Source: Bordetella genomosp. 5 | GTDB lineage: Bacteria > Pseudomonadota > Gammaproteobacteria > Burkholderiales > Burkholderiaceae_B | Assembly (NCBI RefSeq): GCF_002261475.1 | Contig: NZ_NEVN01000009.1 | Coordinates: forward strand, 62,001-126,000 | Length of the DNA stretch: 64,000 nucleotides | Direction of reading: 5' to 3' | Part shown: positions 4,654 to 42,734 of the stretch, in pieces | Numbering within the stretch: the stretch's first letter is position 1 | How the letters are laid out: each line of letters begins with the position of its first letter | The notes under the pieces: generated by a model | What the model saw: the letters and a program-made list of their open reading frames with translations, nothing else | Database searches by the model: none | Told to the model about the DNA's origin: nothing | Program-made: the position numbers and the translations under genes

Positions 4654-5886
4654 CTAGCGCGCCGCGGGCACGGCAAGCAGCGGACGCTGCTCGCGCACGG
4701 GCAAATGCATGGCCGCCGAGAAGAGCCCGATGGCGATCGACAGCAGCCACACCGGATCATACGAGCCGGTGAGCTCGAACAGCACGCCGCCCAGCCACAC
4801 GCCGAGGAAACTGCCCACCTGATGGCCGAGAAACACCACACCGAACAGCGTGGACAGCGACTTCAGGCCGAATAGATGCGCCACCAGGCCGGTGGTGACC
4901 GGCGCCGTGCCCAGCCACAGGAAACCCATCGCGCAGGCGAAGACGAGGGTCGACACCACGCTCACCGGCACCAGGAAATAGATCGTGATGACGGCGGTGC
5001 GCGCCACATACAACATGGCGAGCACGTACTTCTTGGTGTGGCGTTCGCCCATCATGCCGAAAAAGAAGGTGCCGGCGATGTTGAACAGGCCCACCAGCCC
5101 CAGGGCCAGCGCCGCGGTGCCGCCACCGATCCCGTGATCGGACAGATAGGCGGGCAGGTGCGTGGCGATGAACGCGAGGTGAAAGCCGCAGGCCATGAAT
5201 CCCAGCCACAGCAGCCAGAGGTCGCGGTTGCCCAGCGCCTGGCGAATCGGCACGGGCGCCGGCGTGACCGGCGCGGGAGTCACCGGCGCGGGTTCGCCCG
5301 CCGGGGCGGCGCGCGGTTCACGCAGCAGCAACGCGAGCGGCGCCATGGTCGCCAGCAGGACCGCGCAGGCGAGCAGCGCGCCCTGCCAGCCGAACACGCC
5401 GATCAGGAACATGCCGAGGGGCAGCATCACGAACTGCCCGAGCGCCCCCATGGCCGAAACCGCACCGAGCGCGCGCGAACGCATCTCCGCGGGCACCTTG
5501 CGCCCCACCGCCCCGTTGACCGTCCAGGCCGTGCCGGCCAGGCCCAGGCCGATCAGCACCCCGGCCGACAGCGTCAGGCTGAGCCGGCCATCCGACATCG
5601 TGGTGAGGGCCACGCCAGCCACGTAAAGCAGCGCGCCGCCGAACACGACCCGCGCCGTGCCGAAGCGGTCGGCCAGATAGCCCGAAAACGGTTGCGCCAG
5701 TCCCCACACGATGTTCTGCACCGCGATGGCGAAGGAGAAAGTCTCGCGGGTGAGGCCGAAAGCCTCGACCACCGGCAGCTGATACAGACCCGAGCTGTGC
5801 CGTTGTCCCAGGGACAGGCCCAGCACGATGCCCGCCGCCAGCACCACCGGCAAGATCGACGCGGCGCGCTTCGTCGCGGTATTCAT
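4654..5886 (-). CDS. MFS transporter, oxalate/formate-antiporter-like
   Basis: A 410-residue inner-membrane carrier with about 12 hydrophobic segments in two halves. The loop between cytoplasmic-domain helices holds a low-complexity Ala-Pro-Val-Thr-Pro repeat (around residue 200). The N-terminal GIVLGLSLGQRHSSGLYQ and the GYLADRFGTARVV loop place it in the major facilitator superfamily, close to carboxylate or oxalate/formate-type members. The substrate is not assignable. It lies upstream of the sirtuin on the same strand with a short gap. The ATG at 5886 follows a purine-rich GGGGGAA. Confidence 0.85.
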   Translation of the reverse strand: MNTATKRAASILPVVLAAGIVLGLSLGQRHSSGLYQLPVVEAFGLTRETFSFAIAVQNIVWGLAQPFSGYLADRFGTARVVFGGALLYVAGVALTTMSDGRLSLTLSAGVLIGLGLAGTAWTVNGAVGRKVPAEMRSRALGAVSAMGALGQFVMLPLGMFLIGVFGWQGALLACAVLLATMAPLALLLREPRAAPAGEPAPVTPAPVTPAPVPIRQALGNRDLWLLWLGFMACGFHLAFIATHLPAYLSDHGIGGGTAALALGLVGLFNIAGTFFFGMMGERHTKKYVLAMLYVARTAVITIYFLVPVSVVSTLVFACAMGFLWLGTAPVTTGLVAHLFGLKSLSTLFGVVFLGHQVGSFLGVWLGGVLFELTGSYDPVWLLSIAIGLFSAAMHLPVREQRPLLAVPAAR

Positions 5887-5968
5887 TGTCGTGTTCCCCC
5901 GGCCGGCGCGATGGCCGGCCTCTCCTCATTCGAGACGTTGCGAAGCGCGAGCGCCTCGCAACGCGATC

Positions 5969-6970
5969 TCAGCCGCCCAGACCGCAGTCGGGCGTGTCGC
6001 TCACCAGGCTGGCCTGGGTGACATTGCTGTGCGCGGCCACGCTGCGCGTGAGCCAGACATTACCGCCGATGGTCGAGCCCTGCCCGATCGTAATGCGGCC
6101 CAGGATGGTTGCGCCCGCATAGATCACCACATCGTCTTCGATGATGGGGTGGCGCGGCAGCCCCTTCTTGAGCTCGCCGTTCTCGCCGGGCGGAAAGCGC
6201 TTGGCGCCCAGGGTCACCATCTGATAGAGCCGCACCCGGTCGCCGATGATGGCGGTCTCGCCGATCACCACGCCGGTGCCGTGGTCGATGAAGAAGCTGC
6301 GGCCGACGGTGGCGCCGGGATGGATGTCGATACCGGTCTCGGCATGCGCGATTTCGGCCACGATGCGCGCCAGCATCGGCGCGCCCAGGCGATACAGCAC
6401 GTTGGCCAGCCGATGATGGATCATCGCCGTGACGCCCGGATAGCACAGCAGCACCTCGTCGACACTGCGGGCGGCCGGATCGCCCTGGTAGGCGGCGGTC
6501 ACGTCGAGGTCGAGGGCCTTGCGCACCTGCGGCAGCGCCGCGCCGAACTGGCGCACCAGCTCCACCGCACGCTGCATGGTCTGCTCGAACGGCACCGGCT
6601 CGTCACGCGCCAGATGCTGAAACTCCAGACAGACCTGATGCAACAGCGCATCGAGCGCCGCGCCGATGGTATGCCCTACGTAGAAATCCTCGACCTCCTC
6701 GCGTAGGTCGATCGGGCCTAGCCGCATCGGAAACAAGGCGCCACGAAGCTGGTTGAGGATGTCGCGCAGGCTCTCTTGAGAAGGGAACTCGCGCCCGCCG
6801 GACTCTTCGCGCAGCCGGCCGCGCGGCCCGCGCCACTCGTGGCGGGCGGCACGCAGGCCGGAGACGATGCCGTCGAGATTCCAGTGAGCGGTCGGAAACC
6901 GCGACGCGCCGCTCACGGCAGGCTCCGGGCGTGAGCCGGATTCGGCTGAACTGACATGGTGTGACCTCAT
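5969..6970 (-). CDS. epsC: serine O-acetyltransferase (EpsC/CysE type)
   Basis: Acetylates L-serine with acetyl-CoA to give O-acetylserine, the precursor of cysteine. The C-terminal third is a left-handed beta-helix of hexapeptide repeats with the family motifs DIHPGATVGRSFFIDHGTG and VVIGETAIIG, including the catalytic His-Asp region, followed by GGNVWLTRSV. At 333 residues it is longer than E. coli CysE (273), and the extra length is an N-terminal region typical of the EpsC/SrpH branch. No sulfur gene lies beside it in the window. The start at 6970 is the first ATG of the frame; a shorter start is possible. Confidence 0.9.
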   Translation of the reverse strand: MRSHHVSSAESGSRPEPAVSGASRFPTAHWNLDGIVSGLRAARHEWRGPRGRLREESGGREFPSQESLRDILNQLRGALFPMRLGPIDLREEVEDFYVGHTIGAALDALLHQVCLEFQHLARDEPVPFEQTMQRAVELVRQFGAALPQVRKALDLDVTAAYQGDPAARSVDEVLLCYPGVTAMIHHRLANVLYRLGAPMLARIVAEIAHAETGIDIHPGATVGRSFFIDHGTGVVIGETAIIGDRVRLYQMVTLGAKRFPPGENGELKKGLPRHPIIEDDVVIYAGATILGRITIGQGSTIGGNVWLTRSVAAHSNVTQASLVSDTPDCGLGG

Positions 6971-7058
6971 GAATGACCGGTGCCGCGAGCGGCACGCACG
7001 GGGTCAACTGTAACCGTTGCCAGCCGCGACGCGCAGGGCGTCCGACATGGCGGCGGGG

Positions 7059-8531
7059 TTATCCGCGCGCCGCCGCGGCGGTGTGGCGATACCGGTCGAT
7101 CCAGTAGCCGGTGGAGGCGTCGTGATGCCAGTCGACCGCGCCCGCGCGTGCCGGCACGCCCAGCTGCCGTTCGATCTCGGCCGCCAGCCGGCGGCGCACC
7201 GGCCCCGCCCCGTCGCAGCCGTGCACCCGGCCCAGCACCGATTCGAACAGGGTGTTGTGATGCTCATACAGCGCCAGCAATGCGCCCAGGCTGCGCGCAT
7301 CCGGCCGGGGCAGCATGATGAGCGTGGACGGGCGCACCGGCTGGCGCAGGCTCAGCAACCGGCGCTCCGCTAGGCACTCGGCCAGCTCGGCGCCATGCGT
7401 GCCGCTGGCGCGCGGGTCATCGAGCAGCGCCACGAAATCGACCGGTGCGCCCTCCGGGTGGCGTTCGAGCCAGCCCGACGCGGTCACCGCGGGCGGCAGG
7501 CTCCAGACCACGGGGCCGGCGGCCAGGCCGGCCGGATCGCCCATATTGAGCTGCTGCACGTAGTTGGGAATCATCGCCAGCGCCTGCCCGCACACCGCGA
7601 TGTGCCAGGTGGCGCCCCCCCGCGCGCCGGCCCGGGCCAGGCTGGCCAGGGCCATCTGCACGGGTGCGTTGCGCAACAGCGGCGCCTGGGCCACGTGCTG
7701 GTCCATCGCCGCCGCGCCGGCGCAGAGCTGCAGCCACAGGGTCCAGCCGCCGCACAGGCCCAGCACCAGCGGAGCCAGGGCCCACCAGGCATGCCGCGGC
7801 GGCAGCTCGGGCGGCACGACGAATATCTGCGCGCTCGCGATACCGGCCGCGCGCGCGGCCGCGGGGTCCGCCGTCACCGCCACGATGCGGGCCGCCGGAT
7901 CCGCCACGCCCGCGCGCCGCAGCCAGTCGCGCGCCTGCTCGAGCTCCAGCCGGGTGCGCGCATCCGAAAAGGAATGACTGCCCAGCACCACGATCGCATG
8001 ACGGGCGTCGGCGCCACTGCCGAAGCCGCCGCCGCAGGGACCCGCGCAATGCAGGCGGCGCCGGCTCATCTGATCCGACAAGGCGTGCAGCACGCTGCGC
8101 AGACCGCAGTCCAGCGAGCCCTCGCCCAGCAACAGCACATGGCGGGCATCGAGCCGCGCGTCGGCCTGCTCGACCCAGGCGCGCAGCCGCGCCAACAGCT
8201 CACCCTCGGGCGCCGTGCCAACGGGCGCCGTGCCAGCGGGCGCCGTGCCAACGGGCGCCGTGCCTTCGGCGCTGCGCAACGCGGTCGTGGCGCGCGGCAG
8301 CGCGGGCGCGCAGCGGCCGCTGCCGTCGGCGTTCTCGATGCCACAGGCGGCCAGCAGACCGAGGCCCGCCATCGTGAGCGCGGGCGAGCCCGGCTGCAGC
8401 GCGAGATCCACGGAAATGCCGGCGGGTTCGAGCATGCGCAGCATGCGCGAATCCAGACTCGCCCCGTGGGCCGCCCGCAGAAAATGCGACCAGCAGGCCG
8501 GCACGCGCTGTATGTCTTCTTGATGACTCAT
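7059..8531 (-). CDS. glucose-6-phosphate isomerase-like protein with eroded active site
   Basis: A 490-residue protein that I align by eye with phosphoglucose isomerase. AGAAAMDQHVAQAPLLRN (271-288) matches the family AGAHAMDEHF..APL..N block, IPNYVQQLNM (321-330) matches the QQL.MESNGK block, APVDFVAL matches VP.DFIA, and LYEHHNTLF (421-429) matches the late YEH block. Key residues appear lost: the base Glu of MESNGK reads MGDPAG, the Lys of GKxLA reads Arg447, the GGRxSxWS phosphate loop reads PPRHAWWAL, and the glycine-rich GIGGSDLG loop reads LGEGSLDCG. A GTAPV-type repeat occupies 90-110. It sits 17 bp after the phosphomannomutase-like gene. It is probably a non-catalytic paralog or has a changed function; catalysis is unproven either way. 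Confidence 0.7.
   Translation of the reverse strand: MSHQEDIQRVPACWSHFLRAAHGASLDSRMLRMLEPAGISVDLALQPGSPALTMAGLGLLAACGIENADGSGRCAPALPRATTALRSAEGTAPVGTAPAGTAPVGTAPEGELLARLRAWVEQADARLDARHVLLLGEGSLDCGLRSVLHALSDQMSRRRLHCAGPCGGGFGSGADARHAIVVLGSHSFSDARTRLELEQARDWLRRAGVADPAARIVAVTADPAAARAAGIASAQIFVVPPELPPRHAWWALAPLVLGLCGGWTLWLQLCAGAAAMDQHVAQAPLLRNAPVQMALASLARAGARGGATWHIAVCGQALAMIPNYVQQLNMGDPAGLAAGPVVWSLPPAVTASGWLERHPEGAPVDFVALLDDPRASGTHGAELAECLAERRLLSLRQPVRPSTLIMLPRPDARSLGALLALYEHHNTLFESVLGRVHGCDGAGPVRRRLAAEIERQLGVPARAGAVDWHHDASTGYWIDRYRHTAAAARG
8208..8264. repeat. in-frame 15-bp tandem repeat inside the isomerase-like gene
   Basis: Four copies of GGGCGCCGTGCC spaced at 15 bp (starting 8208, 8223, 8238, 8253). 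They encode a Gly-Thr-Ala-Pro-Val-type linker (residues ~90-110) on the minus strand. The period is a multiple of three, so slippage would change linker length without a frameshift. Confidence 0.9.
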
Positions 8532-34378: not shown

Positions 34379-34448
34379 ACGATTGAAAAACTATCGATTT
34401 TCAGGCGGCGCCGGCTCAAGCAAGATGCGCGCATGGAAAGGAGTTGCC

Positions 34449-37400
34449 ATGTACTTTGATTACCGTCTCTGGCTCATGACCGCCGGACTGCGTGCCCGCA
34501 TGGCGGGCGGCGTGCTGCTCGGCCTGGCCGCGCTGCTGGCCGGCATCGCGCGCTACGTCTTCCTCGGCCAGTTGCTGGCCCGCGTCTTCGCCCAGCAGCC
34601 CTGGCAGAGCTGGGTCACGCCCGCCCTCTGCGCGGCGCTCATGGTGGTGCTGCGCGCCGGCCTCGATCATCTGCGCACCCGCGCCGCCAACCGTTGCGCC
34701 ACCGCCATCCAGCAGACCCTGCGCGGCGGCCTCTACGACCGCATCGTCGCGCTCGGACCGGCCTGGTTCGCCAATCAGCGCACCGGCGGCATCATGCTGA
34801 GCGTGGTCGACGGCGTCGAGCAATTGCAGACCTTCTTCGGCCGTTATCTGCCGCAGGTCGCGATTTCGCTCATCGCACCGATCGCCATCTTCGCCGTGAT
34901 CGCCTTCTGGGACGTGCCCACGGCGGCGGTGCTGCTCGGCGCCGCGTTGTTCGCCCTGTTCGGGCCCTCGGCGGTCCATGCGCTCGACCGCCGCGCCAGC
35001 CGCGCGCGCGCCGCCGCGCTGAACGATTTCGGTGAAGAGTTCCTCGACGCCGTGCAGGGCCTGCCCACCCTCAAGGCCTTCGGCCAGGGCAAGAGCTTCG
35101 GCCGGCGTCTGGCCGAGCGGGCACGCCGCCTGTCGGACCATACCTTCTGGGTGCTGTCGGTCAGCGTGCTGACGCGCGGCATCAGCGATCTGGGCGTGGC
35201 GCTGGGCGCCGCGCTCGCCATCACCCTCGGCGCAATGCGCGTGGCGCAGGGCGACATGAGCCTCGAAGCCCTGCTCATCGTGCTGATGGCCGGCACCGAG
35301 ATCTTCCGGCCCTTGCGCGATCTGCGCGCCGTGCTGCATCAGGGCATGCTCGGCCAGTCGGCCGCCGCCAGTATCCATGCCCTCAACGACGCCCGCCGCG
35401 ATGACGCCCGCCCCGCGGCCGCCACGGGCCTGGCGCCCGAGCAGCTCGCGCCCACGATTACCTTCGACAACGTGACGTTCGCGTATCAGCCCGAGCGCCC
35501 GGCGCACCGCGGCCTGAGCTTCGAGATCGCGGCCGGCGAACGCGTCGGCGTGGTGGGCCCCAGCGGCGCCGGCAAATCCACCATCGTGCGGCTGTTGCTG
35601 GGCGAAGTCACGCCACAGGCCGGCAGCGTGCGCGTCGGCGGGCACGACGTGCGCGACCTGGCCCACGATGCCCTGCTGTCGCGCATCGCGCTGGTCAGCC
35701 AGGACATCACGCTGTTCCACGGCACCATTGCCGACAACATCCGGCTCGGCCGGCCCGATGCCACGCAGGCGCAGGTCCGCGCGGCGGCGCGTTCGGCCAA
35801 CATCGATGATTTCATCATGGCCCTGCCCGAGGGCTACGACACGCGGCTGGGCGAGCGCGGCCTGCAGCTCTCCGGCGGCCAGCGCCAGCGCGTCGCCATT
35901 GCGCGGGCGCTGCTGCGCGACGCACCCATCCTGATCCTCGACGAGGCCCTGTCGTCGGTGGACTCCGAAAACGAAGCCCTCATCCAGCAGGCGCTCGATC
36001 GCCTGATGGCCGGCCGCAGCACCCTGATCCTGGCGCATCGCCTGGCCAGCGTGATCGGGGCCGACCGCACGCTGGTGCTGGACCAGGGCCGCGTGGTCGA
36101 GTCGGGCACGCACGCCGCGCTCATGCAGGCGCGCGGCCTCTATCACCGGCTGATGCGCGAGCAGGCCGAGCGGCAGCCCGCGGGGCAGCCCCCCGCCGAG
36201 GTTGCGGCCGCCGAGGGTGCGGCCGCGCCAGCGGCGTTCGCCGGCGCCGCCACGGCGGCCCACGACACGACACCCGACGCCGGCGCGCCCACTGGCGCCA
36301 CGCCGCGCGCGCTCGACGACGACGCCGCGCACGTGGGCTGGCGCGGCGTGCTGGGCACGCTGTTGTCGGTGGTGCGGCCATGGCGCGGCACGCTGGTCGC
36401 CACGATCGTGCTCGGCGTGGCCCGCGTGGCGGCCTTCATCGGCGTGGGCGCGCTGAGCGCGCTGGTGGTGGCGGCACTGCGCAACGGCGAGCCCACCGGG
36501 CTGCTGATCGGCGCCCTGCTGGTGGTGGCTCCGCTGGCGGCCCTGTTTCACTGGCTCGAGTCGTGGCTGGCACACGCCATGGCCTACAAGCTGCTGGCGG
36601 ACATGCGCGTCAATCTCTACGACAAGCTCGAACAGCTCGCGCCGGCCTACCTGCTCGAGCGACGCTCGGGCGACCTGGTCGCGCTGGCCACGCAGGATGT
36701 GGAGATGATCGAATACTTCTACGCGCACACCATCGCGCCGGCCATCGTGTCGGTGCTGGTGCCCGCCACCGTGCTCGGTTTCCTGGCCGTGTACAGCTGG
36801 CCGGTGGCGCTCGCGCTGCTGCCCTTCCTGGGCTACGCGATGCTGTCGCCGGTGCGCGGACGGCGGCGCGTCGACGCGCTGGGCGAACAGGCTCGCGCCG
36901 CGTTGGGCGAGATGAGCGCCCACCTGACCGACACCATCCAGGGTCTGGCCGACCTGACCGCGTTCCAGGCCACGGACCGCCGCCGCGCGCAGTTCCTTGC
37001 GCTGGCCGAGCGCTACGGCCAGCGCCGCCAGGCGATTCTCGACGACCTGTCCGCGCAGAACGCCTGGTTCGAAGTGGCGATGGGCCTGGGCGGTCTGGCG
37101 GTCGCGGTGACGGGCGCGCTGCTGGCAGGCGCCGGCGCGCTGGATCCGGCCATGGTGCCGCTGCTCGTGCTCGTGGCGCTGGCCACGTTCCTGCCGGTCT
37201 CGGAAATCTCGCAGGTCAGCCGCCAGCTGGCCGACACGGTGGCCGCCAGCCGCCGGCTGCACGTGGTGTCGCACGAGCCGGTGCCCGTCACCGACGGTCC
37301 GCGCCAGCTTCCGCGCGCCACGGGCGGCCTGCCCATCGCGTTCGAACAGGTGGGCTTCCGCTATCCGCGTGCCGCGCGCGATACCCTCACCGGCCTGAGC

Positions 37401-38069
37401 TTCGCGATCGCGCCGGGCACCACGGTGGCGCTGGTGGGCGCCTCCGGCGCGGGCAAGAGCACGATCGCCAGCCTGCTGCTGCGCTTCTGGGACGTGAGCC
37501 AGGGTGCGATCCGGATCGGGGGCGCCGACGTGCGCGAGCTGCAGCTCGACAATCTGCGCGACCACGTGGCGCTGGTCACCCAGGACACCTATTTGTTCAA
37601 TGACACGCTCGCCGCCAACATCCGCCTGGCCCGCCCCGATGCGAGCGATGCCGACGTGCAGACCGCGCTGCATCGCGCGGCGCTGTCGGAGTTCGTGGCG
37701 GCCCTGCCGCAAGGGCTCGCCACGCCGGTGGGCGAGCGCGGCATGCAGCTGTCCGGGGGCCAGCGGCAGCGCATCTCGATCGCGCGCGCCTTCCTGAAGA
37801 ACGCGCCGATCCTGATCCTGGACGAGGCCACCTCGCACCTCGACACCCTGAGCGAGGTGCAGGTGCGCGGCGCGCTCGACGCGCTGATGCGCGAACGCAC
37901 CACGCTCGTGATTGCGCATCGCCTGTCCACCATCCGCGAGGCCGATCAGATCCTGGTGCTCGACCAGGGCCGACTGGCCGAACAGGGCACGCACGCCGAC
38001 CTGCTCGCGCAGGGCGGGCATTACGCCCGGCTGATCCGCCACCAGGCCCTGGGCAGCGTGGCGGCCTGA
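34449..38069 (+). CDS. fused two-half ABC exporter, CydDC-like
   Basis: A 1206-residue protein with two complete ABC-exporter halves in one chain, each with six membrane helices and an ATPase. Walker A motifs are GPSGAGKST (~370) and GASGAGKST (~996); signatures LSGGQRQRVAIARALL and LSGGQRQRISIARAFL; Walker B LILDEALSSVD and LILDEATSHLD. A ~65-residue Ala/Pro-rich linker joins the halves. The closest familiar arrangement is CydD plus CydC, normally two genes exporting cysteine/glutathione for cytochrome bd assembly, but no cyd oxidase gene is nearby, so the substrate is open. AAGGAG precedes ATG 34449. Confidence 0.85.
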   Translation: MYFDYRLWLMTAGLRARMAGGVLLGLAALLAGIARYVFLGQLLARVFAQQPWQSWVTPALCAALMVVLRAGLDHLRTRAANRCATAIQQTLRGGLYDRIVALGPAWFANQRTGGIMLSVVDGVEQLQTFFGRYLPQVAISLIAPIAIFAVIAFWDVPTAAVLLGAALFALFGPSAVHALDRRASRARAAALNDFGEEFLDAVQGLPTLKAFGQGKSFGRRLAERARRLSDHTFWVLSVSVLTRGISDLGVALGAALAITLGAMRVAQGDMSLEALLIVLMAGTEIFRPLRDLRAVLHQGMLGQSAAASIHALNDARRDDARPAAATGLAPEQLAPTITFDNVTFAYQPERPAHRGLSFEIAAGERVGVVGPSGAGKSTIVRLLLGEVTPQAGSVRVGGHDVRDLAHDALLSRIALVSQDITLFHGTIADNIRLGRPDATQAQVRAAARSANIDDFIMALPEGYDTRLGERGLQLSGGQRQRVAIARALLRDAPILILDEALSSVDSENEALIQQALDRLMAGRSTLILAHRLASVIGADRTLVLDQGRVVESGTHAALMQARGLYHRLMREQAERQPAGQPPAEVAAAEGAAAPAAFAGAATAAHDTTPDAGAPTGATPRALDDDAAHVGWRGVLGTLLSVVRPWRGTLVATIVLGVARVAAFIGVGALSALVVAALRNGEPTGLLIGALLVVAPLAALFHWLESWLAHAMAYKLLADMRVNLYDKLEQLAPAYLLERRSGDLVALATQDVEMIEYFYAHTIAPAIVSVLVPATVLGFLAVYSWPVALALLPFLGYAMLSPVRGRRRVDALGEQARAALGEMSAHLTDTIQGLADLTAFQATDRRRAQFLALAERYGQRRQAILDDLSAQNAWFEVAMGLGGLAVAVTGALLAGAGALDPAMVPLLVLVALATFLPVSEISQVSRQLADTVAASRRLHVVSHEPVPVTDGPRQLPRATGGLPIAFEQVGFRYPRAARDTLTGLSFAIAPGTTVALVGASGAGKSTIASLLLRFWDVSQGAIRIGGADVRELQLDNLRDHVALVTQDTYLFNDTLAANIRLARPDASDADVQTALHRAALSEFVAALPQGLATPVGERGMQLSGGQRQRISIARAFLKNAPILILDEATSHLDTLSEVQVRGALDALMRERTTLVIAHRLSTIREADQILVLDQGRLAEQGTHADLLAQGGHYARLIRHQALGSVAA

Positions 38070-38203: not shown

Positions 38204-38980
38204 ATGGCGCAAGCGTTCGTAGCGTTATCGGCCTGGCAGGTCATGCTTGCCGGCCTGCTGTTCTTTGGCGGTATCTATCTGGTGTTCGGCGCCACCACAT
38301 GGCTGCTCACCCACCACATCCTGCCGCGTCTCGGCCTGGGTCGCCCGCTCGACACGCGCCCGCTCGCGCCGGGCCAGCTGCGCCGCGAGCTGTCGCAGTC
38401 GGCGCTCTCGATCCTGCTCTTCGGCACCGGCATGATCTTCCCGTGGGGGCTGCTGCAACTGGGCTGGGCGCGCCTGGACTACGACGCCGGCTGGCAGCAG
38501 ATCTCGCTCGAGATCCTGTTCCTGCTCGCCTGGAACGACGTGCATTTCTGGGTCAATCACCGCCTGCTGCACACGAAGCTGCTGCGCCGCTTCCATCTGC
38601 CGCACCATCGCTCCGTGGTCACGACCCCGTTCTCGACCTACAGCTTCCACCCGATCGAGGCGCTGATGCTGGGCAACGTGATCCTGCTGCCCATGCTGCT
38701 GCACGACTTCAGCTTCTGGTCGCTGCTGTCGGTCCCGCTGTTCAGCCTGTTCTTCAACTGCATCGGGCACGCCAACTACGATTTCTTCCCCAACGTGTCG
38801 TACGCGCACTGGTTTGCCGCCAGCCGCCGCCACCACCTGCATCACGCCTGCTACAACGGCAATTACGGTTTCCAGTTCACGTTCATGGACCGTCTGTTCC
38901 GCACGCGCCTGCCGGCCGATGCGGCCGAGCGCCAATGGCAGGCGGCCCGCCAACGAGGCGCACATGGCGCGCAGTCGTGA
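38204..38980 (+). CDS. sterol desaturase/fatty acid hydroxylase family membrane protein
   Basis: A 258-residue integral-membrane diiron oxygenase of the fatty acid hydroxylase superfamily. Four hydrophobic segments and the eight-histidine signature are present: HFWVNHRLLH (~117), FHLPHHRS (~132), HANYDFFPN (~188) and RRHHLHHACYNGNYGF (~205). It would hydroxylate or desaturate a lipid chain. The next gene starts 17 bp before its stop, so the two are co-translated. This is the first gene of a five-gene cluster. Confidence 0.87.
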   Translation: MAQAFVALSAWQVMLAGLLFFGGIYLVFGATTWLLTHHILPRLGLGRPLDTRPLAPGQLRRELSQSALSILLFGTGMIFPWGLLQLGWARLDYDAGWQQISLEILFLLAWNDVHFWVNHRLLHTKLLRRFHLPHHRSVVTTPFSTYSFHPIEALMLGNVILLPMLLHDFSFWSLLSVPLFSLFFNCIGHANYDFFPNVSYAHWFAASRRHHLHHACYNGNYGFQFTFMDRLFRTRLPADAAERQWQAARQRGAHGAQS

Positions 38981-39899
38981 CCCGGGCGGCCGGCCGAGCG
39001 CCTCGCCCGGACCGCTCGCCCTGCGCCATCGGCGCGACCTGCAGAGCCTCGCCTACCTGCTGCTGACGCCGCTGCTCGCCATATGGATGTGGCGCAACGG
39101 CTTCTCGTGGCCGCTCTATCTGCTGTTGCTGTTCCTCACGCTGGGCGTGGGCGTCATCCATCACAACCATACGCACCTGCGCATGTGGCGCGGGCGCGGC
39201 GCGCGCGCGGCGAATCGCCTCACCGACTTCTGGATCACGCTGCTGCAAGGGCATCCGACTTTTGTCTTCTGGCCCGCGCACGTGGGCAACCATCACCGCT
39301 ACAAACACGGCGCGCGCGACGTGGCGCGCACCTATCGCTTCGGCGGTGACACCAATCACCTGTGGGGCTACCTGATCCATCCGGTGCAGGCGGTGTGGGT
39401 GCTGTTTCCGGTCTTCTTCGGCTGGCTCGCCCGCATGCGCCGCCGCCATCCCGGCGTATGGCGCTACTGCATGGCGCAGTATGCGGTGTGGCTGGGCCTC
39501 TGGGGCGGTCTGCTGGCGCTCGACCCGGTGAAGGCGCTGCTGTATGTCATCGTGCCGCAGCTGCACGGCCTGCACTGGCTGCTCGCCACCAACTATCTGC
39601 AGCACGCGCATGCCGATGGCGGCCCGCGCGCGCAGGCCGGGCTCGATTACGCCCGCAATTTCGAGGGCTGGGTCAATCCCCTGCTCTTCAACATCGGCCT
39701 GCACACCGCGCACCACGAGAATCCGCGCGTGCACTGGGCCGACCTCGCCCGCCTGCACCGCACGCATTACCGCGAGCGCGTCGCGCCCGAACTGAACGAG
39801 CGCGGCCTGGTGCCCTACATGCTGCGCGTCTTCGTGCTCGCCAACGTCATGCCCCGCCTGCGCTCGCGCTCGCGCATGGCCGCCGAACACGTCCGCTGA
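38964..39899 (+). CDS. membrane fatty acid desaturase
   Basis: A 311-residue membrane desaturase with several hydrophobic segments and the three histidine boxes: VGVIHHNHTHLRMW (~55-68), WPAHVGNHHRYKH (~102-114) and HTAHHENPRVHW (~249-260). These bind the diiron centre of acyl-lipid or acyl-CoA desaturases. The ATG at 38964 overlaps the previous gene by 17 bp and follows a GAGG. The substrate position is unknown. It lies 22 bp before the ketosynthase fusion. Confidence 0.87.
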   Translation: MARSRDPGGRPSASPGPLALRHRRDLQSLAYLLLTPLLAIWMWRNGFSWPLYLLLLFLTLGVGVIHHNHTHLRMWRGRGARAANRLTDFWITLLQGHPTFVFWPAHVGNHHRYKHGARDVARTYRFGGDTNHLWGYLIHPVQAVWVLFPVFFGWLARMRRRHPGVWRYCMAQYAVWLGLWGGLLALDPVKALLYVIVPQLHGLHWLLATNYLQHAHADGGPRAQAGLDYARNFEGWVNPLLFNIGLHTAHHENPRVHWADLARLHRTHYRERVAPELNERGLVPYMLRVFVLANVMPRLRSRSRMAAEHVR

Positions 39900-39921: not shown

Positions 39922-41841
39922 ATGCCTATTGCGTTCGACCGCGTGTATCTGCAAAGCGCCGGCTACTTCATGCCCGGCGAACCCGTCGACAACGATGCGA
40001 TGGATGCGTACATCGCACCGCTCAACCGCATGTCGACCCGCATCAAGACGCGCATCCTGGCCGAGAACGGCATCAAGACGCGGCACTACGCCATCGACAC
40101 CGATGGCGGCACGCGCCACACCAATGCGCAGCTGGCCGCGCAGGCCATCCAGGACTGCCTGGGCCGCGCGGGCGGCGAGCTGGCGCAGGTGTCGTATCTG
40201 GCGAGCGGGTCCTCGGGCGGCGACGCGCTGATGCCCGGCTTTGCCAACATGATCCAGGGCGAGCTCGCCGCGCCGCCCATGGAAACGCTGTCGGTACACG
40301 GCATCTGCGCCGCCGGCGTGAGCGCCATCCAGAGCGCCGCGCAGGCCATCCAGGCCGGTGGACACGAGCGCGCGCTCGCGGTCGCCGCCGAGCTGCCGTC
40401 CCGCCTCTTCAAGCGCTCGCGCTTCGCTGCGCGCGGCTACGACGCCGACTTCGATTCGCACTTCCTGCGCTGGATGCTGTCCGACGGCGCCGGCGCCATG
40501 CTGCTCGGTTCGGACGGCAGCGCGCTGCCGGGCGCCTCACAGGGCATCAAGCTCAAGCTCGACTGGATACACCAGCGCTCGTTCTCGGGCGACTATCCCG
40601 TCTGCATGCAGCTGGGGCTGCCGGCCGACCGCAAGCAGGGGCATCTGGATTACCCCTCGTGGCAAGAGGCGGAAGCCGACGGCGCGCTGTCGCTGCGCCA
40701 GGACATCCGGCTGCTGCCGCATCTGTTCGACATCGGCATCCACGAGTACGTGAAACTCGTGCGCGACGAATGGATCGCGCCCGGCCAGGTCGATCACTTC
40801 CTGTGCCACTACTCGTCGGAGAAGTTCATTCCGGTGGTCGCCGACCTGATGGAAAAGGCCAACCTCGAGATCCCGCGCGAGAAGTGGTACAGCAACCTCG
40901 CGTGGCGCGGCAACACCGGCGCCGCCTCGATCCTCATCATGCTCGCGGAGTTTCTCGAGACCCGTACCGTCAAGCCGGGCGAGCGGATCTTCTGCTACAT
41001 CCCCGAGTCGGGCCGGTTCATGACGGCGTACATGTGCTTCACGGCGCAGGCGCTCGACGACGACCGCGTGCAGGTGGCCGTGCCGGCCCGCCGCGCCGCC
41101 GCCACGCTCGGCGACGATGCCGACGACATCGCGCCTCCGCACGATCCCGCCTATGCCCCGCAGGGCCTGTCGCAGCTTCTCACCGAGCTGGCCGCGATCT
41201 GGCATGACTACCGCTCGCGCGTGTGGCGCACGCCGGTGATCCAGCGCCTGCGCCGGCGCGAGTTCGAGACCGCCGATTATCTGCGCTGGATGGAATGCTG
41301 GGTGCCGCAGGTGCGGGAAGGCAGCAAGTGGATGCGCGAAGGCGCCGCCTCGCTGGGCCCGCAATACGCCCCGCTGGCCGAGCTCATCGGCATGCACGCC
41401 GGCGAGGAACAGAACGACTTCATGATTCTGTTCGAGGATTACCGCAAGGCCGGCGGCCAGGCCGAGAACATCGACGCCCTGCGCCGCAATCCCGGCGGCG
41501 AGGCGCTCAACGCCTACCTGCACGCGCTCGCGGCCACGAACGATCCGATCGGCCTGCTGGGTGCGATCTACATCATCGAAGGCACGGGCCAGCGCATCGT
41601 GCCCGCCCTGCTGCCCCTGCTCAAGGCCAGCCTGGACCTGCCGCCCGACGTCTTCCGCTTCCTCGAGTACCACGGGCACAATGACGAGCATCATCTGGCC
41701 CGCTGGCTCGCGGCGGTGGAGCTCGCGCTCGACTGCGACGAAGACGGCCAGGCCGAACAACGTATCATCGACACCGCACGCCGCACGGCGGCGCTGTACC
41801 TGATGCAATTCCAATACGTGATGGAGCAGGCCCCGGCATGA
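39922..41841 (+). CDS. KAS III-like ketosynthase fused to a heme-oxygenase-like diiron domain
   Basis: A 639-residue two-domain protein. Residues ~1-390 form a FabH/OleA-type condensing enzyme with the triad Cys129 (SVHGICAAGVSA), His296 (FLCHYSSEKF) and Asn331 (WRGNTGAAS). Residues ~410-639 resemble heme-oxygenase-like diiron oxidases: Glu458, Glu487/His492 (ELIGMHAGEEQND), Glu553 (YIIEGTGQ) and an H-x3-D-x2-H set His584/Asp588/His591, the spacing I recall for SznF and CADD. A plausible reaction is condensation of an acyl chain followed by oxidative modification or decarboxylation; this is inference. It overlaps the next gene by 4 bp (ATGA). Confidence 0.78.
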   Translation: MPIAFDRVYLQSAGYFMPGEPVDNDAMDAYIAPLNRMSTRIKTRILAENGIKTRHYAIDTDGGTRHTNAQLAAQAIQDCLGRAGGELAQVSYLASGSSGGDALMPGFANMIQGELAAPPMETLSVHGICAAGVSAIQSAAQAIQAGGHERALAVAAELPSRLFKRSRFAARGYDADFDSHFLRWMLSDGAGAMLLGSDGSALPGASQGIKLKLDWIHQRSFSGDYPVCMQLGLPADRKQGHLDYPSWQEAEADGALSLRQDIRLLPHLFDIGIHEYVKLVRDEWIAPGQVDHFLCHYSSEKFIPVVADLMEKANLEIPREKWYSNLAWRGNTGAASILIMLAEFLETRTVKPGERIFCYIPESGRFMTAYMCFTAQALDDDRVQVAVPARRAAATLGDDADDIAPPHDPAYAPQGLSQLLTELAAIWHDYRSRVWRTPVIQRLRRREFETADYLRWMECWVPQVREGSKWMREGAASLGPQYAPLAELIGMHAGEEQNDFMILFEDYRKAGGQAENIDALRRNPGGEALNAYLHALAATNDPIGLLGAIYIIEGTGQRIVPALLPLLKASLDLPPDVFRFLEYHGHNDEHHLARWLAAVELALDCDEDGQAEQRIIDTARRTAALYLMQFQYVMEQAPA

Positions 41842-42734
41842 AAGAACCGGCGTTTCTCGTCGACGGCCACGACATGGCCGACCCCAACCCCTGGCTCGCG
41901 CTTTACCTCGACCGCAGCACGCCGCTGCCCGACAAGGTAAAGAAGGCCTGGCTCACCGATTCCAGCAGCGGCTCGCGCCAGTACCTGCTGCCGTTCGTGC
42001 GCCCGATCGCGCGGCTCTTCATCATCCTGATCCAGGTGATCAAGACCTTCGTGCCGCGCCGCTGGTCGCACTCGCGCCTGCTGCACCGCATCCTGGCGTG
42101 GGGCCTGAACCGCTTCGTCTCGCCCGAAGCCAACTGGCTGATCCTGCGCCACTTCCACCTCGGCGCCCAGATCCTGGCGTTCATTGCGGCCAATGCACCG
42201 GTGCGCGTGGGTACCACGCCGCTCGAGCCGCGCACGATCGACGATCTGAAGGACGAGCTCTTCGTCAAACACGATCTGAACCTGTTCAACTTCGTCATCC
42301 GGTTGAACCAGGCCATGCGCGATGCCGGCGTGGAGATGCACGCGCCCGAGCGGCTGGATTTCTCGATGATCCAGGATCCGGGCCTGCGGCTCGAAGACAT
42401 GCCCCAGGGCCGCTGGAACAAGCTCGACCTGCAGAGTGCTATCGAGCTGTTCACGCCGCTGTATCAGCTGATGCTGACCGACAACGATTTCTGGCGCGCC
42501 TGCAATTCCCTCCAGCTCGACGAGACCATCGGCATCTATTCGGCGCAGCTGCTCGGCGCGCCCCAGCATCTGGTGCTGGTCAACAACAAACATCCGCTGG
42601 TGCCGATGTCCACGCTGCGCGCGGGCTATCGGCTGGTGCTGCACGGCTTGTCGACCGAAATGCTGCACAGCCTGCTGATGGCCGAGCGCCACGCGCAGGA
42701 AGGCGACGCGCCGCCGCCCGCTCCGATCGCCTGA
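41838..42734 (+). CDS. protein of unknown function in the lipid cluster
   Basis: 298 residues, translationally coupled to the ketosynthase fusion. I do not recognise the family with certainty. One or two hydrophobic stretches lie at ~45-65 (PFVRPIARLFIILIQVIKTF). A conserved-looking RHFHLGAQILAFIAANAP (~98-115) and KHDLNLFNFVIRLNQAM (~142-158) contain several His and Asp residues. No signal peptide or nucleotide-binding motif is visible. Its position suggests a partner, carrier or membrane anchor for the ketosynthase product. Confidence 0.72.
   Translation: MKEPAFLVDGHDMADPNPWLALYLDRSTPLPDKVKKAWLTDSSSGSRQYLLPFVRPIARLFIILIQVIKTFVPRRWSHSRLLHRILAWGLNRFVSPEANWLILRHFHLGAQILAFIAANAPVRVGTTPLEPRTIDDLKDELFVKHDLNLFNFVIRLNQAMRDAGVEMHAPERLDFSMIQDPGLRLEDMPQGRWNKLDLQSAIELFTPLYQLMLTDNDFWRACNSLQLDETIGIYSAQLLGAPQHLVLVNNKHPLVPMSTLRAGYRLVLHGLSTEMLHSLLMAERHAQEGDAPPPAPIA

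Follow-up and report, generated by a model that had tools for sequence, protein, structure and literature searches.

Ketosynthase, heme-oxygenase-like domain, and DUF6999 form a constant gene unit in Bordetella genomosp. 5 and other bacteria

The window analyzed here, a stretch of 64,000 nucleotides from Bordetella genomosp. 5 (contig NZ_NEVN01000009.1, positions 62,001 to 126,000), contains an operon on the forward strand in which one gene joins a StlD/DarB-like ketosynthase to a heme-oxygenase-like (HDO) domain and the next encodes a DUF6999 protein. Ketosynthase, HDO domain, and DUF6999 are the constant unit across the genomes sampled. The gene cluster probably makes a lipid-like compound through a variant of a known pathway. 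We tentatively read the operon as a version of the dialkylresorcinol route, a reading that we consider possible rather than probable, in which two acyl chains are condensed and the HDO domain carries out an oxidation in the place of DarA; the chemical steps are ones that we infer.

The fused gene is a single open frame of 639 residues (39922-41841, plus strand), and residues 1 to 375 (39922..41046) form the ketosynthase part. The first-pass annotation had described this half as a ketosynthase III (KAS III) with an intact Cys129/His296/Asn331 triad. The triad is present at these positions by sequence and alignment (codons 40306..40308, 40807..40809, and 40912..40914), is invariant in a 34-row alignment of fused proteins as well as in 15/15 HDO-linked and 7/7 aligned DarB ketosynthase rows, and is also present in the alignment to StlD. 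The KAS III profiles PF08541 (39.6 bits; cutoff, 26.6) and PF08545 (25.1 bits; cutoff, 24) both matched above their cutoffs, but the generic KAS III reading was set aside, as StlD is the nearest relative by a wide margin. The nearest solved structure is StlD (5gk0; E 4e-63), with the next non-StlD structure at E 3.3e-10, and the nearest NCBIfam model is the StlD/DarB model NF005293 (E 6.1e-98). The score on this model was 328.3 bits, under the cutoff of 450, whereas the five DarB loci of the phylum sample scored 561 to 601 bits; given this shortfall, the substrates of the fused ketosynthase may differ from those of StlD and DarB. A linker that varies in length and sequence (residues 376 to 406, limits approximate; 41047..41139, from the alignment) separates the ketosynthase from the HDO domain.

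The likeness to StlD and DarB consists of the strong sequence match, the same catalytic triad, and 36 positions that are invariant and identical in both sets when the 15 HDO-linked rows are aligned with the 7 DarB rows, an alignment with no fixed differences between the sets. The ketosynthase differs from them in its score below the model cutoff, in the fused or adjoining HDO domain, in its DUF6999 partner, and in that DarA was not found in any of 16 genomes carrying the unit. In a ketosynthase tree, the DarB rows formed a clade of their own (95/99), and the HDO-linked rows fell outside it. Seven fused rows formed one clade (97/100) when the tree was rooted with FabH, and 15 fused rows did so (100/100) in a separate tree in which the outgroup row was a 261-residue frame from locus L001 rather than FabH. 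The alignment behind the 36 shared positions also contained this L001 row, which did not enter the counts. In the FabH-rooted tree, a single clade for all 17 HDO-linked ketosynthases was neither shown nor rejected (p-AU 0.124).

Weak matches to the ketosynthase half (E 0.0002 to 0.0003 in the solved-structure search) were given by 5vxf and 3row, which we take to be OleA chains. OleA and PpyS belong, like the ketosynthase described here, to the KAS III superfamily, and they condense two chains (PMC4578411). In PpyS, the catalytic Glu precedes the catalytic Cys by 24 residues (PMC4578411); the residue at this distance from Cys129 is Pro105, and by counting only, the catalytic Glu of OleA and PpyS is thus absent at the equivalent distance in the window ketosynthase. 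The simple 3-keto acid originally supposed as the ketosynthase product is not the best guess, because the ketosynthase is closest to the StlD/DarB family, whose members join two acyl chains. In a UndA-like course, the ketosynthase would make a linear 3-keto acid and the HDO domain would decarboxylate or oxidize it to an alkene, a ketone, or an oxidized lipid. HDOs with fatty-acid substrates do exist, UndA among them (PMC13108848), and the operon encodes two lipid-modifying membrane enzymes, but the StlD/DarB-like character of the ketosynthase, the proline found (by counting only) in place of the catalytic glutamate of PpyS (PMC4578411), and the aspartate that replaces the usual HDO histidine at position 499 make this course unlikely.

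The HDO domain occupies residues 407 to 639 (41140..41838, plus strand) and matches PF14518 with an E value of 4.2e-11 over residues 506 to 626 (43.4 bits for the C-terminal half; Pfam cutoff, 28.9). A 14-row profile of the HDO family searched against solved structures had 3dde as its sole significant match (E 3.5e-13). When one genome per species was scanned, 208 stretches proved to encode an HDO-domain relative; the best 80 were retained, so that the locus sample leans toward close relatives. The fused frame was found in 79 of these 80 loci (best 80 of 208), the remaining locus, L113, being cut by the contig end. Together with the passing KAS III and PF14518 profiles and with the neighboring separate genes of more distant genomes, this supports the earlier proposal that ketosynthase and HDO-like domain are fused in one chain. 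The genome of the window encodes a second PF14518 protein (L188, 1420-2151, minus strand; 243 amino acids; E 2.7e-38), which fits the Pfam model more closely than does the fused domain and in which the spacing of the ligands looks different.

Candidate metal ligands were compared between ketosynthase-linked and standalone HDO domains, which were separated by E value (ketosynthase-linked below 1e-50). After removal of duplicates from 137 rows, 103 distinct ketosynthase-linked domains remained, a number that was the same over residues 440 to 600 alone; the 25 standalone relatives came from a search with a profile built from the same HDO family, which calls for caution regarding their alignment. 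For all but one of the 103 (102/103), one or more of the loci held a ketosynthase match, the exception being L113, which is cut at that spot, and no such match was found in the 25 standalone loci (0/25; about 1.5 kb searched on each side). The two groups aligned profile to profile with an hhalign probability of 99.6 and without gaps across the ligand stretch, so that a slip of the alignment at position 499 is unlikely.

The H-x3-D-x2-H pattern that had been read as part of a diiron site was confirmed: His584, Asp588, and His591, in the candidate last ligand helix (41671..41694, plus strand), are each invariant in 103/103 ketosynthase-linked and 25/25 standalone domains. The proposed upstream ligands held in part. 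Glu553 (41578..41580), a candidate ligand common to standalone HDOs, was found in 103/103 and 25/25 domains, and His492 (41395..41397), also a candidate, was His in 103/103 linked domains and Tyr in 24/25 standalone domains; Glu458 and Glu487, which were Glu in 66/103 and 6/103 linked domains, respectively, are ruled out as general metal ligands. Three conserved candidates lay outside the first list, namely, Glu496 (41407..41409; 103/103 and 25/25), which is common to standalone HDOs, Glu466 (41317..41319; Glu in 100 and Asp in 3 of 103; His in 23/25 standalone), a candidate extra carboxylate ligand, and Asp499 (41416..41418), which is Asp in 103/103 linked domains at a position that is His in 25/25 standalone domains.

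According to a 2026 review, the ligand sets of HDOs are 3H/3C in the majority and 3H/4C in about a quarter (PMC13108848). Five of the six standard 3H/3C positions are kept in the ketosynthase-linked domains, and the sixth, position 499, is Asp throughout (103/103). The first-pass assignment to the HDO family is supported by the profile match, but the candidate metal site departs from the standard ligand set. With the HDO dimetal oxidases of PF14518 (UndA, SznF, CADD, and others), the ketosynthase-linked domains have in common the Pfam match, the profile match to the heme-oxygenase-fold protein 3dde, and Glu496, Glu553, His584, Asp588, and His591; they are unlike these enzymes in having Asp499 for His, in having His492 and Glu466 as marks of the clade, and in the ketosynthase fusion. 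The protein in 3dde (TENA/THI-4-like, with a heme oxygenase-like fold), the function of which is given as unknown in the title of the entry, also has a His at the place of His492, but differs in that the alignment pairs a His with each of Asp499 and Glu466.

Judged from sequence, having Asp rather than the usual His at position 499 could mean that the oxidase function was changed or lost. The HDO domain might then hold a single metal, or one that is non-redox, and act as a cyclase, a hydrolase, or a structural partner. The change from His499 to Asp is complete (103/103) and goes with His in place of Tyr492 and Glu in place of His466, and mononuclear HDOs exist (PMC13108848). The mononuclear HDOs described in that review are, however, without two ligands of the last core helix, which are intact here; Glu496, Glu553, His584, Asp588, and His591, common to standalone HDOs, are invariant; and a His is located seven residues before position 499, which, on a helix, would place it on the same side. 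We therefore regard a domain that is no longer an oxidase as rather unlikely and retain an oxidative HDO step in the proposed dialkylresorcinol variant.

The first gene of the operon (38204..38980, plus strand) encodes a fatty acid hydroxylase-type membrane protein (PF04116; E 2e-21) with hydrophobic segments and the His boxes HRLLH, HLPHH, and HHLHH. It is followed, with an overlap of 17 bases, by a gene for a fatty acid desaturase-type membrane protein (PF00487; E 1.1e-23; 38964..39899, plus strand), the start of which is at about 38964 if the ATG is taken (searches used 38958, two codons earlier). Matches to each of these proteins were found in 77 of the 80 loci (best 80 of 208), and neither protein matched a solved structure at an E value of 1. 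The DUF6999 gene (PF22523; E 2.1e-132; 41838..42734, plus strand) shares 4 bases with the 3' end of the fused gene and was matched in 79/80 loci (best 80 of 208). Its product has one strong hydrophobic segment, a profile of the family found nothing convincing among solved structures (best match, YidC; E 0.41), and a literature search for the word DUF6999 found no paper. The operon showed no gene for a carrier protein or a ligase. Upstream of it, at 34440-38069, two ABC-transporter halves are encoded in one chain that passes the cutoffs of the models for CydD and CydC (TIGR02857 and TIGR02868) and MsbA (TIGR02203).

All five parts (hydroxylase, desaturase, ketosynthase, HDO domain, and DUF6999) were found in order, on one strand, and within 4.5 kb in 75/80 loci (best 80 of 208). 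The exceptions among these best 80 of 208 were L090 and L110, without a desaturase match; L111, without a hydroxylase match; L096, without hydroxylase and DUF6999 matches; and L113, a contig of 3 kb. Five genes flanking the operon in the window were kept (at 50% identity or more) in only 1/80 loci (best 80 of 208), so that the operon appears as a unit in varied surroundings. In L096 (Variovorax sp. MHTC-1), the fused gene and the desaturase are kept, and DUF6999 and the hydroxylase are unmatched in the stretch examined.

Within the GTDB family of the window, 56 of 200 sampled genomes had a match, which in 47 of these was one full-length piece. Among named relatives, Bordetella genomosp. 1 is nearest (92% identity), and other carriers among the best 80 of 208 include Achromobacter, Pigmentiphaga, Advenella, Variovorax, Pararobbsia, and Lysobacter penaei. 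Two copies look broken: in L149 (genome G011), the ketosynthase lies in two frames, and at G189:C1:2071544-2073512, the match is in three pieces. A split form, in the order ketosynthase, HDO, and DUF6999, occurs in L033 (a Pseudoalteromonas plasmid), L146, L147, L159, L160, and L177 to L181, and L145 has the fused gene and DUF6999 without a match to either membrane enzyme. The two membrane enzymes lie outside the core unit, because neither was matched in 11/11 split or distant loci tested, L148 apart.

DUF6999 was present in 9 of 398 genomes sampled across the phylum; within the class of G772, itself among these nine, 6 of 240 genomes had it. In all 14 distinct sampled genomes with DUF6999 (14/14), it adjoins a ketosynthase and an HDO domain; the converse fails once, in L096 (best 80 of 208), where the fused gene is without a DUF6999 match. 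Caulobacter vibrioides, a laboratory organism, was the sole carrier of DUF6999 among 14 control genomes. It was also one of two control genomes with a match to NF005293, the cutoff of which was passed in one of the two, and one of two with a match to PF14518; its matches to the three families were counted genome-wide and not as one locus. In three gammaproteobacterial loci with the split form, a His- and Glu-rich membrane protein of 188 residues is encoded before the ketosynthase (L033, 11427-11993; L146, 2623-3189; L160, 9441-10007), where it occupies the place of the hydroxylase and desaturase of the Burkholderiales; this protein matched no Pfam family (best E 0.32). In the alphaproteobacterial locus L159, DUF6999 is directly followed by a gene for a protein of 1133 residues (4697-8098, minus strand) that, read from its sequence, looks like a transporter, an acyltransferase, and an acyl ligase in one chain.

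A dialkylresorcinol cluster contains DarB, DarA, and accessory dar genes, whereas in the window operon DarA is unmatched and the neighbors of the fused gene are a fatty acid hydroxylase, a fatty acid desaturase, and DUF6999. A gene for a protein of about 305 residues adjoins DarB in all five Pseudomonadota DarB loci (5/5). This neighbor was taken for DarA because darA is listed beside darB as the DAR-aromatase (PMC3949708) and because other genes nearby in L182 hit the DarG and DarH models of NCBIfam; the protein itself was named neither by an NCBIfam model nor, at a significant level, by Pfam (best match, Flavodoxin_4; E 0.083). A homologue is also found beside the Streptomyces ketosynthase of L034 (E 7e-55). 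Whole genomes searched with one putative DarA query gave matches in 5/5 DarB genomes and in 0/16 genomes with the ketosynthase-HDO-DUF6999 unit, a search with a single query that would miss a very divergent DarA. Two Bacteroidota plasmid loci with DarB-like enzymes, L176 and L187, which supply two of the seven DarB rows, had no match to putative DarA within stretches of 13.1 and 7.1 kb. DarB-type enzymes thus occur without DarA nearby, which argues against a strict rule, and the contrast between DarB with DarA and the ketosynthase-HDO unit is weakened by these two loci and by the positional identification of DarA. DarA may also be dispensable where something other than a resorcinol is made.

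With these qualifications, the HDO domain and DUF6999 may take the place of DarA in finishing a two-chain product, and because DarA is apparently absent, a late oxidation of such a product is favored over alkene or ketone chemistry. In the proposed variant of the dialkylresorcinol route, Cys129 would be loaded with an acyl chain from ordinary fatty-acid metabolism, and the ketosynthase would join this chain to a second acyl thioester to give a cyclohexanedione-type or related 1,3-dicarbonyl product. The HDO domain would then use O2 and a two-metal center to oxidize the condensation product in the place of DarA, by aromatization, oxidative decarboxylation, or ring hydroxylation, with DUF6999 as a possible membrane-associated partner or further enzyme of this oxidation step. 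In the Burkholderiales, the fatty-acid hydroxylase and desaturase would alter the alkyl chains.

The HDO domain might instead act before condensation, desaturating or oxidizing an acyl thioester to supply the ketosynthase with an alpha,beta-unsaturated partner. Cyclohexanedione formation pairs a beta-ketoacyl thioester with an alpha,beta-unsaturated one (PMC4578411), desaturation is within the repertoire of HDOs (PMC13108848), and the fusion would suit channeling in either direction. The five Pseudomonadota DarB loci are without an HDO match (0/5), however, which implies that DarB needs no such helper there, and the part that is apparently missing is DarA; an HDO reaction ahead of condensation is accordingly a distinctly unlikely order of events, and oxidation after condensation remains our preferred reading.

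A broader form of the preferred reading, which we regard as somewhat unlikely when taken whole, is that the ketosynthase, the HDO domain with its relocated histidine, and DUF6999 constitute a widespread, O2-dependent counterpart of DarA-DarB that yields undescribed two-chain oxidized lipids, such as hydroxylated resorcinols or quinones, and that has a dimetal ligand set new among characterized HDOs. If the preferred reading is right, DUF6999, a family of unknown function, would gain both a role and a partner, and it would follow that a DarB-type condensation can be completed by an O2-dependent dimetal domain instead of DarA. An altered metal site would also permit a direct test of how the ligands set HDO chemistry. 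The first-pass annotation knew of no characterized enzyme with this fusion, and none was reported in the papers found by a literature search from which most subscription journals were beyond reach, so that the silence of the literature is a weak sign of novelty; the main text of the HDO review contains none of the words "fused," "fusion," or "ketosynthase" (PMC13108848). Genome-mining tools may label ketosynthase-HDO loci as plain resorcinol clusters. An antiSMASH resorcinol region with DarB as its core gene has been described in a strain of Achromobacter mucicolens (PMC9045304), and the A. mucicolens genome examined here carries the ketosynthase-HDO fusion (L040), which could be the same region.
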